Of a DNA stretch of 64,000 nucleotides, positions 23,680-51,193 are shown piece after piece. Source of the DNA: Hyphomicrobium sp. (GTDB taxonomy: Bacteria > Pseudomonadota > Alphaproteobacteria > Rhizobiales > Hyphomicrobiaceae); NCBI RefSeq assembly GCF_003987855.1, contig NZ_RXIZ01000001.1, positions 90,933-154,932 on the forward strand, written 5' to 3'. The notes beneath the pieces were generated by a model. The model was not told where the DNA came from. It worked only from the letters and a program-made list of their open reading frames with translations, and ran no database searches. The position numbers were made by a program, and so were the translations under genes. The stretch's first letter is position 1, and the number at the start of each line of letters is the position of its first letter.

Positions 23680-23723
23680 TGTACTATTTACGCGACAGTT
23701 ATGAGTGTCAACTTAAATATACA
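23680..23723 (-). promoter_or_regulatory. bchC promoter with two PpsR/CrtJ-type sites
   Basis: Two TGT-N12-ACA palindromes lie 8 bases apart: TGTACTATTTACGCGACA (23680-23697) and TGTCAACTTAAATATACA (23706-23723). On the minus strand TTGACA (23711-23706) and AATAGT (23688-23683) sit 17 bases apart, so the distal site covers the -35 and the proximal one the -10. This is the arrangement known for the bchC promoter of Rhodobacter, where PpsR/CrtJ represses under oxygen. Confidence 0.88.
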
Positions 23724-28388: not shown

Positions 28389-28406
28389 TGTCGCAGAGTC
28401 TTGACA
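28389..28406 (+). promoter_or_regulatory. PpsR/CrtJ-type site upstream of bphP
   Basis: TGTCGCAGAGTCTTGACA fits TGT-N12-ACA and ends in TTGACA, which could be a -35 box. It sits 135 bases before the bphP ATG in the 266-base gap after crtC. I see no other feature in that gap. Confidence 0.65.
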
Positions 28407-28540: not shown

Positions 28541-30823
28541 ATGAACCCGGCTGAAAAGCGCAAAGCGTCGACTATCGTTACTGCGAAGAACGTCGACCTC
28601 TCGAACTGCGATCGCGAGCTGGTTCAATTTCCCGGCGCCGTCCAGCCGCACGGCGTGATGATGATCGTTGACGAGCCCGCCTATGTCATTCGTCAGGTCA
28701 GCGAGAATTGCGTCAAGTTCCTGGGCCGTCCCGCCGAGCAACTCCTCGGCAAATCGATCGAAGAGGTCTTCGATCGCAGCGCGCCGCAAATGCTCAACCG
28801 ATTGCGGCGGGTGTCCCTCGAGAACGGACCCGTTCACGTCGTGCGTGAGTCGTTTGCCGGCTCGACGCGAGGCGTCAATATTTTCGCTCATCGCTGCGAC
28901 GGCGCTCTGATCCTCGAAATCGAGGCGGCCGGCACGCGCGCGGATGCCCCCAATGCACACCTTTATTCCGATGTCCGGGAAGCAGTCACGGCTTTGGAGA
29001 ATACCCACGGGTTGCAGAAGTTTCTCGACCTCGCCGTCGACAGGATCCGAAACTTCACCGGCTATGACCGCGTGATGGCATATAAGTTCGCCGAAGATGG
29101 AAGCGGCCACGTCGTCTCGGAAGCCAAGCGCCAGGATCTCGAACCGTATCTTGGCCTCCACTATCCGGCGTCCGACATACCGGCGCCGGCGCGCCGGCTG
29201 TTTGGCTTGAGCTGGCTGAGACATCTGCCGGACGTCGATTACGTTCCGGTTCGCCTTTACCCGGAATTTCACCCGGCATCCCACAAGCCGGTCGACATGA
29301 GTTTCTCGATCCTTCGCAGCGTCTCGGTGATGTACACCGGATACCTCAAAAACATGGGCGTTCGATCGACGATGGTGATGCCTCTCATGAAAGAGGGGCA
29401 GCTCTGGGGTTTGATTTCCGCGATGCACCATAGCGGTCCACGGCAGGTCGCCTACGAAGCGCGAATGGCCACCGAGTTTCTCTCGCACATGGTCTCGCTC
29501 CTACTCGGAGCCAAGGAAGACGCCGATGGTTACAGCGAACGGTTGCGTATGGCCGCCGTCACCGATCAACTCGTCGAAAAATTGAGCCGCAACAGCGATT
29601 TTCACGATGCTCTGGGGCAAGCAGAACGGTCTCCCAACCTGCTGACGCTGATCCCCGCAACCGGCGCAGCTATCGTCTCGCGCGGGAACATTTCTCAGAT
29701 CGGCTCGACGCCTTCGAAACAGGAACTCGAAGCCCTCGCGACATGGCTCACGGCGCAACCGGAAACAGTGTTCGCAACAAACCGCCTGCCAGAGATCTAT
29801 CCGCCTGCGCTTACGTATAAATCTCTGGCAAGCGGCGTGCTGGCCGTTCAAGTAGCTCCAGAGACGCAAGAATTCCTCATGTGGTTCCGGCCTGAGCACA
29901 TCGAAATCGTCAATTGGGCGGGCGATCCCAAGAAGCCGGTCAAAGTCAGCCAAACCGACGGTGAGCTGCGCCTGCAGCCGAGAAGCTCGTTCGCGCTTTG
30001 GAAGGAAAGTGTCGAAGGTCGCTCCGAGCCGTGGCGCAACGACGAAAAGGAAGTGGCCGCCAACCTCCGCCAGGCCATCAACGAAGTCGTATTGACCCGA
30101 GCCCGGCAGATCGAACGCATCAATCGCGAGTTAGCAGATGCGAATGTCGAGCTCGACAGCTTCGCTTATGTTGCGTCGCACGATTTGAAAGAACCCTTGC
30201 GCGGCGTCCACCTTCTCGCGAGTTTCCTCCAGCGCGGCCTTGAGGGAAAAATTGACGAGCAAGGGCGCGAGCAGCTCGACAACATCCTGAAGCTTACGCG
30301 CCGAATGGACGATCTCATCGAGTCCCTGTTGCAATATTCGCGAACGGGACGCCTGGAGCTGAACCTCACGACGGCCAACATGGACGAGATCGTCGACGAA
30401 GCAATATCGGACTGCCGCCACTCCGCCGGCCAGCAGAACGTCGACATTCGGCGGCCCAAGGCTATTGGCTTCGTCACCTGCGATCGCGTACGAGTACGCG
30501 AAATTTGGGCGAACCTGATTACCAATGCCAAGAAGTATAACGATAAGATAAATCGCTGGATCGAGATCGGATCGGAAGATTCCTCGCCTCCCCGATATTA
30601 CGTGCGCGACAATGGCATTGGTATTCCGGAAGACGCGCGCGAACGCGTGTTCGAAATCTTCCGGCGCATGCATGGCAAGAACGAATACGGCGGCGGCGTT
30701 GGCGCCGGCTTAACGATTGCACGAAGAGCTGTCGAACGCCACGGCGGCAAGATTTGGGTCGAGTCTAAGGTGGGCGAAGGCTCGACATTTTATTTCACAC
30801 TCGCACCGGAGGGCCTGTCATGA
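28541..30823 (+). CDS. bphP: Bacteriophytochrome histidine kinase
   Basis: A red/far-red photoreceptor kinase of 760 residues: PAS (about 20-130) with the biliverdin-binding Cys23 in LSNCDREL, GAF (about 145-320) with GYDRVMAYKF, SDIP (Asp212) and MHHSGPR, PHY (about 330-500) with the tongue motif PRSSF (480-484), HisKA with His547 in SHDLKEPLRG, and an HATPase with DNGIGI and GVGAGLTIA. The conserved chromophore-pocket His equivalent to His260 of Deinococcus BphP appears as Tyr265 (VSVMYTGYL). The stop overlaps the next gene (ATGA), a response regulator and probable phosphoacceptor. In Bradyrhizobium and Rhodopseudomonas, phytochromes beside the PGC act on PpsR. Confidence 0.94.
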   Translation: MNPAEKRKASTIVTAKNVDLSNCDRELVQFPGAVQPHGVMMIVDEPAYVIRQVSENCVKFLGRPAEQLLGKSIEEVFDRSAPQMLNRLRRVSLENGPVHVVRESFAGSTRGVNIFAHRCDGALILEIEAAGTRADAPNAHLYSDVREAVTALENTHGLQKFLDLAVDRIRNFTGYDRVMAYKFAEDGSGHVVSEAKRQDLEPYLGLHYPASDIPAPARRLFGLSWLRHLPDVDYVPVRLYPEFHPASHKPVDMSFSILRSVSVMYTGYLKNMGVRSTMVMPLMKEGQLWGLISAMHHSGPRQVAYEARMATEFLSHMVSLLLGAKEDADGYSERLRMAAVTDQLVEKLSRNSDFHDALGQAERSPNLLTLIPATGAAIVSRGNISQIGSTPSKQELEALATWLTAQPETVFATNRLPEIYPPALTYKSLASGVLAVQVAPETQEFLMWFRPEHIEIVNWAGDPKKPVKVSQTDGELRLQPRSSFALWKESVEGRSEPWRNDEKEVAANLRQAINEVVLTRARQIERINRELADANVELDSFAYVASHDLKEPLRGVHLLASFLQRGLEGKIDEQGREQLDNILKLTRRMDDLIESLLQYSRTGRLELNLTTANMDEIVDEAISDCRHSAGQQNVDIRRPKAIGFVTCDRVRVREIWANLITNAKKYNDKINRWIEIGSEDSSPPRYYVRDNGIGIPEDARERVFEIFRRMHGKNEYGGGVGAGLTIARRAVERHGGKIWVESKVGEGSTFYFTLAPEGLS

Positions 30824-31713
30824 CGCCCGAACTGGGACCTGTTTTATCCATTGAGGACAACGACACGGATTTCATGACGCTCGAGCACGCGTTGCGCTCG
30901 GCGGGCGTGAAAAATCCCGTCAAACGCTGGGAAGATGGCCGCATCGCCATGAATTCATTGTCGGCGGATGCGGGCAATTCCGTAGCCATGAAGGCGGCGC
31001 TCATTCTCCTCGACCTCAATCTTCCGGGCGTCGACGGTCTTCAGTTGCTGAGGGCCCTCCGCGCCCTGGATCGAGACCGCAGGATCCCGGTTCTGATACT
31101 CTCGACATCGTCGCACTCCCGGGACATCGACGCCTGCTACCTCGCCGGCGCCAACGGCTACGTCATCAAGCCGTTGGAACTTAACGCGTGGGAGACAAGG
31201 GTCGGCGACCTCGCCGAAAAATGGCTGCGCCGCAGCCTGAAGTCGCCGGAGGCACAACCCAAAGCCATCCCCACGCCAAAGGCCGAAAAGACACGCGCAA
31301 CCAAGCGCATGCGCGAAAAATTTGCCCGTGACATGCGCCGGGCGCAACTCACCCGCACGATTGAATGCGAGATCATTCCGCGCCTCCTCCTCGCCCATGG
31401 CTGTTCGGCTCAAATGGGCCAAAACATTGCGCCGATCGGAGCTGAGGAGGCGAGAGACGAAGTCGCCGAACTCGTGCAGCTCGTGCTGGCGAGCGAGATG
31501 ACGGTCGCGGCCTCGTACGTTGAGAGCAAGCGCATTCAAGGCGCGACGCTGGAAACGCTGTTCCAGGCCCTTATCGTTCCGGCGGCGAGGTTGATCGGGG
31601 ACATGTGGAAGGCTGACATTTGCAGCTTCCATGAATTTTCAGAAGCGCTGTCCAGGCTGCAGGTCATGTTGGCAGAACTCACCCCCGCAACCGAGAAAGG
31701 CACGCTGCACTGA
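30820..31713 (+). CDS. Response regulator with PpaA/AerR-like helical C-terminal domain
   Basis: A 297-residue protein in two parts. Residues 8-130 are a receiver domain: acidic pocket Glu12/Asp13, phosphoacceptor Asp65 in LLDLNLPG, Ser95/Thr96 and Lys117 in VIKPLE. After a basic linker (140-175), residues 176-287 (IECEIIPRLLLAH, TLETLFQALIVPAARLIGDMW, FHEFSEALSRLQVMLAEL) resemble the helical region that precedes the cobalamin domain of PpaA/AerR antirepressors. The protein ends where the B12-binding domain would begin; no DxHxxG is present. No DNA-binding domain is seen. ATGA overlap with bphP makes it the likely target of that kinase. The receiver is certain; the PpaA/AerR likeness is from memory of family sequence. 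Confidence 0.85.
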   Translation: MTPELGPVLSIEDNDTDFMTLEHALRSAGVKNPVKRWEDGRIAMNSLSADAGNSVAMKAALILLDLNLPGVDGLQLLRALRALDRDRRIPVLILSTSSHSRDIDACYLAGANGYVIKPLELNAWETRVGDLAEKWLRRSLKSPEAQPKAIPTPKAEKTRATKRMREKFARDMRRAQLTRTIECEIIPRLLLAHGCSAQMGQNIAPIGAEEARDEVAELVQLVLASEMTVAASYVESKRIQGATLETLFQALIVPAARLIGDMWKADICSFHEFSEALSRLQVMLAELTPATEKGTLH

Positions 31714-31784: not shown

Positions 31785-31816
31785 TTGACGTTTGATGGTG
31801 TCTAATTTCTATTACA
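31785..31816 (+). promoter_or_regulatory. bchI promoter with PpsR/CrtJ-type site
   Basis: TTGACG (31785-31790) and TCTATT (31808-31813) lie 17 bases apart, and TGTCTAATTTCTATTACA (31799-31816, TGT-N12-ACA) covers the -10. The ATG of bchI follows 62 bases later. Binding of PpsR here would block polymerase at the bchIDO operon. Confidence 0.75.
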
Positions 31817-43732: not shown

Positions 43733-43775
43733 TTTTCAGGCTGCTTCGCCTTCGATTTCGTACGCGCGGAGAAGC

Positions 43776-45341
43776 ATGACGGTAACCCTGCGCCTCGTAT
43801 TGGGCGATCAGCTGAGCGAGACGATCGCATCGCTCCGCGGTATCGATGCCGCAAACGACGTCGTCTTGATGGCCGAAGTCAAGGCAGAGGGCACGTACGT
43901 TCCGCATCATCCGCAGAAGCTCGTGTTCTTCCTCGCGGCAATGCGATGCTTCGCCCAGTCGCTGCGATCGCGCGGCATCCGCGTCCGCTACGTGACGCTC
44001 GATGACGCGCAGAATACGCATACTCTCATTGGCGAAGTGCGCCGCGCTGTCCACGAGGAAAAGCCGCGCCGTGTGCTAGCGACATGGCCCGGCGAATGGC
44101 GGGTCTTGGACATGCTCACCAAGCTCAAGGCCAGCTTGCATATCCCGTTCGACCTTTTGGAGGACGACCGGTACTTCTGCAGCTTGCCCCAATTTCGCGA
44201 GTGGGCGGGAAACCGCAAGCAATTGCGGATGGAATACTTCTACCGTGAAATGCGCCAGAAGACCGGCCTCCTGATGCGCGGGGTCAAAACACCCGATGGC
44301 GGCCGATGGAATTTCGACGCCTCCAATCGGGAGCCGTTCGCCGGTGGACCGCTTGCCTTGCCCGAAGCACCCCGTGCGCACCACAAGGCGAACACAGCAG
44401 AAGCCGTCGAAACCGTGAAAGAAGCGGTTGCCCGTCACTTCCCCAACCACTTCGGATCGATCGAAGATTTCCGCTGGGCCGTCGACCGCGAGGGAGCGCT
44501 GCGCGCTCTCGACCATTTCATATCCGATCGCCTGCCCGAATTCGGGCGCTATCAGGACGCGATGGTCACCGGATCCGACACGATGTTCCACTCCCTGCTC
44601 TCGCCCTATCTCAATGTCGGCCTGCTTGGCCCCGAGGAAGTCTGCCGCGCCGCCGAGTCCGCCTATCGCGACGGCCGCGCGCCGATCGAATCCGTCGAAG
44701 GCTTCATTCGTCAGATCCTGGGCTGGCGCGAATATGTTCGCGGCATCTACTGGTTGTTTATGCCCGACTACGCCAAGCACAACTTCTTTCACGCCCGGCG
44801 CCGGCTTCCCGACTTCTATTGGGACGAGACGAAGACTGAGATGGCCTGCCTTCGCGAATGTATCGGCGCGACGCGGCGCAATGCCTACGCACACCACATT
44901 CAGCGTCTCATGGTGACGGGAAACTTCGCGCTGCTCTCCGGCGTGCACGTCAAGGAAGTGACCGATTGGTACCTGTCGGTATATGCCGACGCCGTTGAAT
45001 GGGTCGAATTGCCCAATACGCTCGGCATGTCCCTGTTTGCCGACGGCGGGCTGATGGCGAGCAAACCGTACGCCGCTGGCGGGCGTTACATCGACAAGAT
45101 GAGCGATTACTGCACGAATTGCCGTTACCGGCCGGACCGTAGAACAGGAGAAAACGCCTGTCCCTTCACGATGCTGTATTGGGATTTCATGATCCGAAAT
45201 TCCGGTCAGCTCGCCATGATCGCCCGCTTGAAACCCATCCTCGCTCAGATCAAAACGATGTCTCTCGCGACGCGTGCTGAAATCCAATCACAAGCTCAGG
45301 AGTTTCTCGACCGCGTCGCGCCGGTTATGAAGAGCGGATAG
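43776..45341 (+). CDS. Fe-S photolyase/cryptochrome (PhrB/CryB type)
   Basis: A 521-residue member of the bacterial Fe-S cryptochrome/(6-4) photolyase group: the N-terminal LRLVLGDQLSETIASLRG, central GSIEDFRWAVDREGALRAL, antenna- and FAD-domain segments EGFIRQILGWREYVRGIYW and YAHHIQRLMVTGNFALL. Four C-terminal cysteines (in MACLREC and YCTNCRYRPD...NACPF) fit the [4Fe-4S] ligands. Relatives repair (6-4) photoproducts or act as blue-light regulators (Rhodobacter CryB). ATG 43776 has GGAGAAG upstream; a longer open frame starts inside the previous gene. Confidence 0.9.
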   Translation: MTVTLRLVLGDQLSETIASLRGIDAANDVVLMAEVKAEGTYVPHHPQKLVFFLAAMRCFAQSLRSRGIRVRYVTLDDAQNTHTLIGEVRRAVHEEKPRRVLATWPGEWRVLDMLTKLKASLHIPFDLLEDDRYFCSLPQFREWAGNRKQLRMEYFYREMRQKTGLLMRGVKTPDGGRWNFDASNREPFAGGPLALPEAPRAHHKANTAEAVETVKEAVARHFPNHFGSIEDFRWAVDREGALRALDHFISDRLPEFGRYQDAMVTGSDTMFHSLLSPYLNVGLLGPEEVCRAAESAYRDGRAPIESVEGFIRQILGWREYVRGIYWLFMPDYAKHNFFHARRRLPDFYWDETKTEMACLRECIGATRRNAYAHHIQRLMVTGNFALLSGVHVKEVTDWYLSVYADAVEWVELPNTLGMSLFADGGLMASKPYAAGGRYIDKMSDYCTNCRYRPDRRTGENACPFTMLYWDFMIRNSGQLAMIARLKPILAQIKTMSLATRAEIQSQAQEFLDRVAPVMKSG

Positions 45342-50593: not shown

Positions 50594-51193
50594 GGGCGCG
50601 TCGTCCAGCATGAACTGCTCGAAGGCAGCAGTCGCACCCGCAATGACGATTTCGGGATTGGCCTGCGCCGGGGCCGACGCTTCAAGTCTCGCCAGGAACG
50701 TCTGCCAAAGGGGCTTACCGTGACCGTGCGACAGGTAGCTCGTCGGCCCGCTGAAGCCGGACAGTCCACGCAGGATCATCCGAGCGCCAAGCCGCGATCC
50801 TTCGAGCACATAGAGAGTGCCGAGCTGATACGCTTCATCCCGCAGCAACGCTTGATCCGCAACGGGACGCGGCTCAGGAACGGCGAGCCCCAGCGCTTCC
50901 AGGTCGGCAATCAAAGCCGACGATCGCGCACGATCGGGCCAATCAGGCATAACCTGCGCCACACCGGCCGCCTCGAGTTCTCGTTCCAGCGGCAACAACG
51001 CCGCAGCGCTCGCGAGGAGAAACTGCCCATACCCCTCGTCGCCGGATCGCAGATGCTGTTCCATCGAGCGATCGAGCCGCGCATGCAGCGCCGACGTCGA
51101 CGTGCGAAGCCGATCACGAAGCGTCAGGCGCTCACCTAATCCCGGCCGGAATACTTCGCTCACCAATTCACCCCCGATCGCAATTCGAACCAT
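50591..51193 (-). CDS. bphO: Biliverdin-producing heme oxygenase
   Basis: Opens haem to biliverdin, the chromophore of bacteriophytochromes. The 200-residue product has the proximal His37 in TSTSALHARLD and the distal-helix segment YQLGTLYVLEGSRLGARMILR typical of BphO-type heme oxygenases. The start at 51193 has a weak ribosome site; the first about 20 residues are unconserved. It lies about 20 kb from bphP with no promoter motif shared with it. The only phytochrome in the window is at 28.5 kb. Confidence 0.88.
   Translation of the reverse strand: MVRIAIGGELVSEVFRPGLGERLTLRDRLRTSTSALHARLDRSMEQHLRSGDEGYGQFLLASAAALLPLERELEAAGVAQVMPDWPDRARSSALIADLEALGLAVPEPRPVADQALLRDEAYQLGTLYVLEGSRLGARMILRGLSGFSGPTSYLSHGHGKPLWQTFLARLEASAPAQANPEIVIAGATAAFEQFMLDDAP

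Follow-up and report, generated by a model that had tools for sequence, protein, structure and literature searches.

We analysed a 64,000-nucleotide stretch of the genome of Hyphomicrobium sp. (hereafter the window), and in particular a response regulator gene that directly follows the bacteriophytochrome gene bphP. The encoded protein joins an N-terminal Rcp-type receiver to a helical bundle homologous to that of AerR and PpaA, without the B12-binding Rossmann half. We propose that this regulator is a chromophore-free, AerR-like partner of PpsR that is phosphorylated by BphP and gated by this phosphorylation, a reading to which we assign a probability of roughly 60%. The finding points to a possible new way in which red light could reach photosynthesis genes.

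The regulator (P0001) is encoded by an open reading frame (ORF) of 297 amino acids on the + strand (30820-31713), of which the ATG overlaps the stop codon of bphP (ATGA; stop at 30821-30823). Response_reg was the sole Pfam domain reported for the protein (PF00072; residues 8-123, E-value 1.4e-15). Together with profile matches to the PDB, this places the receiver at residues 8-138 (30841-31233, + strand). Residues E12, D13, D65, T96 and K117 were invariant in all seven homologues, the window's own included, and Asp65 (31012-31014) occupies the phosphoacceptor position. Hence, the first-pass annotation was correct in reading a receiver with Asp65 in the gene that overlaps bphP. When the profile of the seven full-length homologues was compared with the PDB, RcpB (1k66) ranked at the top (5.8e-35), with both Rcp1 and RcpA in the top seven matches and several bacteriophytochrome response regulators in the top eleven. 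A Foldseek search with the full-length model, itself of poor quality, ranked AtBRR, a Rhodospirillum receiver and RcpB first. Rcp-type receivers are known to dimerise. None of the homologues is a receiver alone without an output domain, as the bundle was present in 7/7.

The receiver is followed by a variable linker (residues 139-176; 31234-31347, + strand), which is poorly conserved in the alignment, basic-rich by eye, and modelled at a predicted local distance difference test score (pLDDT) below 50 for residues 142-162. The helical bundle comprises residues 177-287 (31348-31680, + strand), as supported by BLASTP, profile comparison with the PDB, a model of the bundle and a comparison of alignment columns. 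It contains the IPRLLLAH helix and the segment W263-x6-F270-x2-F273-S274-x3-S278-x2-Q281.

The first-pass annotation had described residues 176-287 as a helical region resembling PpaA/AerR, and two lines of sequence evidence back this description. BLASTP of residues 166-297 matched the two B12-type proteins of the same genome (L003, 1.9e-14; L004, 2.1e-10), and E-values for other B12-type relatives went down to 3.8e-30 (L017, 6.4e-30). The profile of the seven bundles against the PDB gave AerR of Rhodobacter capsulatus (7te2) first at 1.3e-5, followed by an unrelated protein at 0.054. A search of the PDB with the single sequence also ranked AerR first, yet with an E-value of only 0.057; because this was inconclusive, it is the seven-bundle profile that settles the link to AerR. 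Structure prediction for the C-terminal part pointed in the same direction. The bundle modelled alone (mean pLDDT 74, from a two-sequence alignment) resembled only B12-domain proteins among the 50 Foldseek matches shown, namely CarH/LitR, a MerR-type B12 domain and AerR, with weak E-values of 0.07-0.45 and TM-scores of 0.45-0.52 over the query. The relationship of the bundle to AerR/PpaA rests on sequence homology, not on the structure model. Pfam did not list B12-binding_2 for the regulator at E-values up to 1. Three B12-type relatives checked in Pfam all had B12-binding above the cut-off; for B12-binding_2, whose cut-off is 23 bits, they scored 22.3, 23.2 and 17.5. Family libraries alone would therefore miss the link to AerR.

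The absence of the B12 half was assessed across 52 bundle-bearing reading frames. These included 46 from the 28 PpsR-bearing genomes of the window organism's family, five loci from outside the family (out of eight bundle matches in the order search; G229, G219 and G206 were left out) and the partial frame L108 at a contig end. No residues followed the bundle profile match in the seven receiver-fused proteins, whereas 126-144 residues followed it in all 45 others, of which 41 carry the motif [ED]xHxxG. The partial frame L108 is counted in the 45 but was dropped from the 44 used in column and tree comparisons. The Rossmann half with [ED]xHxxG is thus absent from the regulator, and hence a complete heme-binding SCHIC domain as well. 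Only a short tail and the stop codon remain (31681-31713, + strand), with a T-x-H ending in 7/7 homologues, at the point where B12-type relatives run on into the Rossmann half. The protein indeed ends at the border between bundle and Rossmann half, as had been claimed from the single sequence. Because the B12 half, one of the features that define PpaA and AerR, is absent, we do not class the regulator as a member of that family; we regard it as a new architecture assembled from known parts.

The truncation is neither a matter of chance nor a fresh frameshift, because homologues that are 43-66% identical to the window's protein keep the same C-terminal end, and because nonsynonymous divergence (dN) of the bundle was low (0.21-0.27 in three pairs) compared to synonymous divergence (dS), which was 3.2 in one pair and saturated, and so not computable, in two. 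No dN/dS ratio (omega) is given for the pairs with saturated dS. An intermediate with receiver, bundle and Rossmann half was not found among the 46 bundle proteins of the 28 genomes, in which receivers were sought by sequence motif. We also inspected the space 3' of the regulator for a remnant of the B12 half. This gap measures about 165 bases up to bchI in the window; in three relatives a larger gap holds an ispH-like gene, and the other frames of the gap were not searched. The ispH-like genes, recognised by eye, lie between the regulator and bchI in G037, G069 and G095 (L058 7946-8920, L059 8106-9089 and L060 8111-9073, respectively).

A check for the combination of receiver and bundle found this layout in 7 of the 103 genomes of the family, always after bphP. 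The carriers belong to four genera (G000, G053, G060 and G061 in g1, G037 in g10, G069 in g11, and G095 in g20). An eighth match, G084 (genus g14), turned out to be an ordinary PpaA. A scan of genome contigs gave two loci, one of which matched the receiver only. No further full-length match was obtained in samples of the order (397 genomes), class (385) or phylum (398), for which scoring was limited to the six best first-look candidates of each genome (compared to 23 in the family search), at E-value thresholds of 1e-16 and 1e-32 (order), 1e-28 (class) and 1e-42 (phylum). These samples overlap and each covers part of its group; their matches lack six of the seven carriers. At 1e-32, six of the 397 genomes of the order sample matched: the window's own genome, four with the receiver only and one with the bundle only. 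Among 72,556 plasmid records, 44 matched in part and none over 80%.

The regulator occurs together with one type of bacteriophytochrome. PpsR (TIGR02040) was found in 28 of the 103 family genomes, including all seven carriers, and 14 of these 28 had a BphP-like match at 1e-60. In seven of the 14 the best BphP was 66-100% identical to that of the window, and these are exactly the seven genomes with the regulator; the matches in the other seven were only 30-39% identical. A further, distant BphP-like match is present in some of the carriers; in the window's own genome this is a protein with 35% identity (G000:C19:125939-127498). The BphP of the window (28541-30823, + strand; 760 amino acids) has the Pfam domains PAS_2, GAF, PHY, HisKA and HATPase_c. 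Thus, HisKA and HATPase_c are present and a PAS9/HOS output in place of the kinase is not. Cys23 was kept in all six N-termini present (L057 is cut by a contig end) and His547 in 7/7. A different BphP was seen in G021 (L108 1-5253), together with a heme-oxygenase-like ORF and a LuxR-type response regulator, both recognised by eye, and, where the contig ends, the partial gene for a B12-type AerR-like protein.

The regulator sits in a photosynthesis gene cluster with the order crtD, crtC, bphP, regulator, bchI, bchD, bchO, crtI, crtB. The crt and bch names are our own reading of the translations rather than assignments from a family library; conservation of the order was established by tblastn. 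In all seven carriers bphP and the regulator are followed by bchI-bchD-bchO-crtI-crtB, and in six of them crtD-crtC lie upstream of bphP (the contig of G061 begins inside bphP). The start-stop overlap between bphP and the regulator was present at all six junctions examined. This adjacency in 7/7 carriers, and the exact co-occurrence with one BphP type in 28 genomes, substantiate the earlier claim that the regulator is coupled to the phytochrome gene.

The bundle retains several residues with described or proposed roles in AerR. The available part of PMC9144470 places AerR Trp94 and Phe101 over the upper ligand of B12 and His145 on the lower side. On the basis of template-guided modelling, it also proposes that the fourth helix turns Thr105, Ser109 and Gln112 towards conserved positions in the CrtJ Q-linker. 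An ungapped alignment maps Trp94, Phe101, Thr105, Ser109 and Gln112 to W263, F270, S274, S278 and Q281. Trp at 263 was present in 7/7 carriers and 44/44 B12-type relatives, Phe at 270 in 6/7 and 42/44, and Gln at 281 in 7/7 and 38/44. Position 273 behaved differently: it was Phe in all seven carriers versus Val in all 44 B12-type relatives, the sole column that is invariant within each group yet different between them. Column 259 had no residue in common between the groups (Ile/Val versus Leu/Met). Position 273 corresponds to AerR Val104 and, by ungapped spacing from CarH Trp131, to CarH Glu141; according to the excerpt of PMC10442372, CarH Trp131 and Glu141 contact the adenosyl group. Phe273 may fill the emptied corrin pocket. 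The Q-linker pattern Q..L...Q...E..Y...R was found in all eight PpsR proteins checked (the seven carriers and G084); all matches were exact, although the search tolerated similar residues.

In the mechanism that we propose, red/far-red light sensed by BphP would lead to phosphorylation of Asp65 in the receiver. Phosphorylation would then alter dimerisation of the receiver or release the attached bundle, and the fourth helix of the bundle could dock on the Q-linker of PpsR. Docking would change the grip of PpsR on photosynthesis promoters, relieving or strengthening repression. The Q-linker is also where AerR has been proposed to dock, and in a crystal structure the SCHIC domain of AppA sits there. 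The portion seen of PMC5362033 reports that AerR binds CrtJ as a 1:2 complex. SAerR and LAerR have opposing effects in R. capsulatus (PMC9144470, in part). The receiver is attached in front of the IPRLLLAH helix, in the region where the N-terminal extension of LAerR acts in R. capsulatus; this helix may correspond to that of LAerR.

The first-pass annotation had gone further and inferred that, at PpsR, phosphorylation takes over from cobalamin as light input. As a statement about the cell this did not hold, because all seven carriers keep a B12-type PpaA beside ppsR; a second input, parallel to that of B12, fits better than replacement. What remains is the idea of an input through phosphorylation, which has gained in plausibility because of the Rcp-type receiver, the kept Trp and Gln, the change from Val to Phe, the conserved kinase and chromophore residues of BphP, and the presence of PpsR in 7/7 carriers. 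We consider the odds about even for the fuller version of this scenario, where AerR has lost its B12-sensing half, a phytochrome kinase controls the remaining PpsR-docking bundle through phosphorylation, red/far-red light thereby provides an input parallel to that of B12 through PpaA in the same cell, and a fixed Phe fills the emptied corrin pocket. Besides the protein beside ppsR, the window's own genome encodes a second B12-type AerR-like protein of 291 amino acids on another contig (L003 1390-2265).

The starting points of the proposal are observations, namely the layout, the homology of both halves, the absence of the B12 half, the gene order, the co-occurrence with one BphP type and the conserved active-site residues. 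Several points weigh against the proposal. We infer the transfer of phosphate, the binding to PpsR, the surface used for docking and the direction of the effect. The extra regulator may do something else, because every carrier keeps an ordinary PpaA near ppsR (within the stretch fetched around that gene). Two of the proposed PpsR contacts are not fixed, as position 274 is Ser or Thr in six carriers and Glu in one, and position 278 is variable, with Ser in only 2/7. What is available of PMC9144470 derives the AerR-CrtJ interface from template-guided modelling. Conservation of the pocket Trp in proteins without the B12 half may reflect a structural role only. The change to Phe273 is possibly a single inherited event or drift, because the seven carriers form one clade (support 100/99) in the tree of 51 aligned bundles, of which the bootstrap was unsettled and several branches were long. 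The AlphaFold2 model of the full-length protein was poor (mean pLDDT 58, from a two-sequence alignment), and PpsR-type sites beside bphP were not conserved.

Some of the same observations can be read in other ways. The bundle might be a borrowed dimerisation or scaffold module with a target other than PpsR, for instance another kinase, a pigment-synthesis enzyme, or DNA contacted through the basic linker. The variability of this linker, basic by eye, and the lack of conservation at position 278 would agree with such a role, which is nevertheless unlikely given that the regulator lies in the photosynthesis cluster in 7/7 carriers and that all seven have PpsR, although only 28 of the 103 family genomes do. 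Somewhat less probable still is that the bundle pairs with full-length B12-type PpaA instead of PpsR, as a phosphorylation-controlled decoy or partner through which red light tunes the B12 input. Here Phe at position 273, against Val in 44/44 relatives, makes it less likely that a corrin is bound in trans, and the Gln that has been proposed as a PpsR contact is conserved, whereas the retention of PpaA beside ppsR and of the pocket Trp in 7/7 carriers would suit this pairing.

The missing Rossmann half might also mark the regulator as a decaying, non-functional remnant of a receiver-PpaA fusion. We regard this as highly improbable, considering that all seven carriers, a single clade, share the endpoint and an intact frame at 43-66% identity, that dN is low against a high or saturated dS, and that the 46 bundle proteins of the 28 genomes include no receiver-bundle-Rossmann intermediate. 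A phosphorylation-gated partner of PpsR is the reading that we prefer.

The window contained 11 PpsR-type palindromes (TGTN12ACA), compared to 5.0 expected, and 1 of 100 shuffles reached 11. Six of the eleven lie in gaps of the photosynthesis cluster, at 23680, 23706, 25802, 28389, 31799 and 35610. The site in the gap between crtC and bphP (28389-28406, no strand assigned) and that in the gap 3' of the regulator (31799-31816, no strand assigned) are weak. They were not used as support, because the former occurred in only 2/6 and the latter in only 2/7 of the corresponding gaps in the carriers. A promoter scan gave one promoter-like site versus 1.2 expected and nine terminator-like sites versus 4.0 expected, and was not used either. 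PF02461 had no match in the seven carriers and none in the control genomes, so that its absence carries no information. A heme oxygenase-like ORF (50594-51193, - strand; PF01126, 2.4e-5), about 20 kb away, might supply BphP with biliverdin. Furthermore, a deoxyribodipyrimidine photolyase-related protein (PF04244, 3.7e-75) is encoded near the cluster at 43758-45338.

If the proposal is right, the helical half of AerR suffices for an effect on PpsR, and the B12 half is an input that can be exchanged. The AerR/SCHIC fold would then have two separable functions, and the regulator would offer a natural test case for the question of which part of AerR communicates with PpsR, as well as a means of controlling photosynthesis genes through phosphorylation. 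Phytochromes would, moreover, have a further route to these genes, beside direct BphP1-PpsR2 binding (PMC6899989) and the putative LhfE/LhfA phosphorelay (PMC6879726), both as described in the excerpts available. The first-pass annotation knew of no described protein with this layout, and this agrees with the literature covered: no combination of receiver and AerR-type bundle was among the matches listed in full-text literature, which covers few subscription papers, and no such fusion is described in the accessible portions of PMC9144470, PMC10734443, PMC6199135, PMC6899989, PMC6879726, PMC4844311, PMC4557120, PMC10442372 and PMC5362033.

The regulator combines features of several known systems. 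With AerR and PpaA (LAerR and SAerR of R. capsulatus, PpaA of R. sphaeroides) it shares the homologous bundle, the pocket Trp, the Gln for which a PpsR-facing position is proposed and a place in the photosynthesis cluster of a PpsR genome, and with the B12-type relatives compared here the IPRL helix. It differs in lacking the Rossmann half and ExHxxG, in its N-terminal receiver, and in having Phe where 44/44 have Val. Like Rcp1, RcpA, RcpB and bacteriophytochrome response regulators, it has the corresponding receiver sequence and is encoded directly after a phytochrome histidine kinase. In contrast to these proteins, it adds an AerR-type bundle; of its first 11 solved relatives, 10 are chains of 140-171 amino acids and the other is a 938-amino-acid BphP-regulator chain. 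CarH/LitR shares the four-helix cap fold according to the structure search (with weak E-values), but is a transcription factor that has a DNA-binding domain of its own as well as the complete domain for B12 binding. In AppA of R. sphaeroides (BLUF-SCHIC), a signal-sensing module is likewise joined to an AerR-like domain, which contacts the PpsR linker (PMC9144470, part seen); AppA has BLUF, a complete heme-binding SCHIC and no receiver. Finally, a phytochrome acts on PpsR in Rhodopseudomonas palustris, as we propose for the window. There the type-3 BphP1 with a PAS9/HOS output complexes PpsR2 directly (PMC6899989, from the part available), whereas the BphP of the window is a histidine kinase and its response regulator a separate protein.

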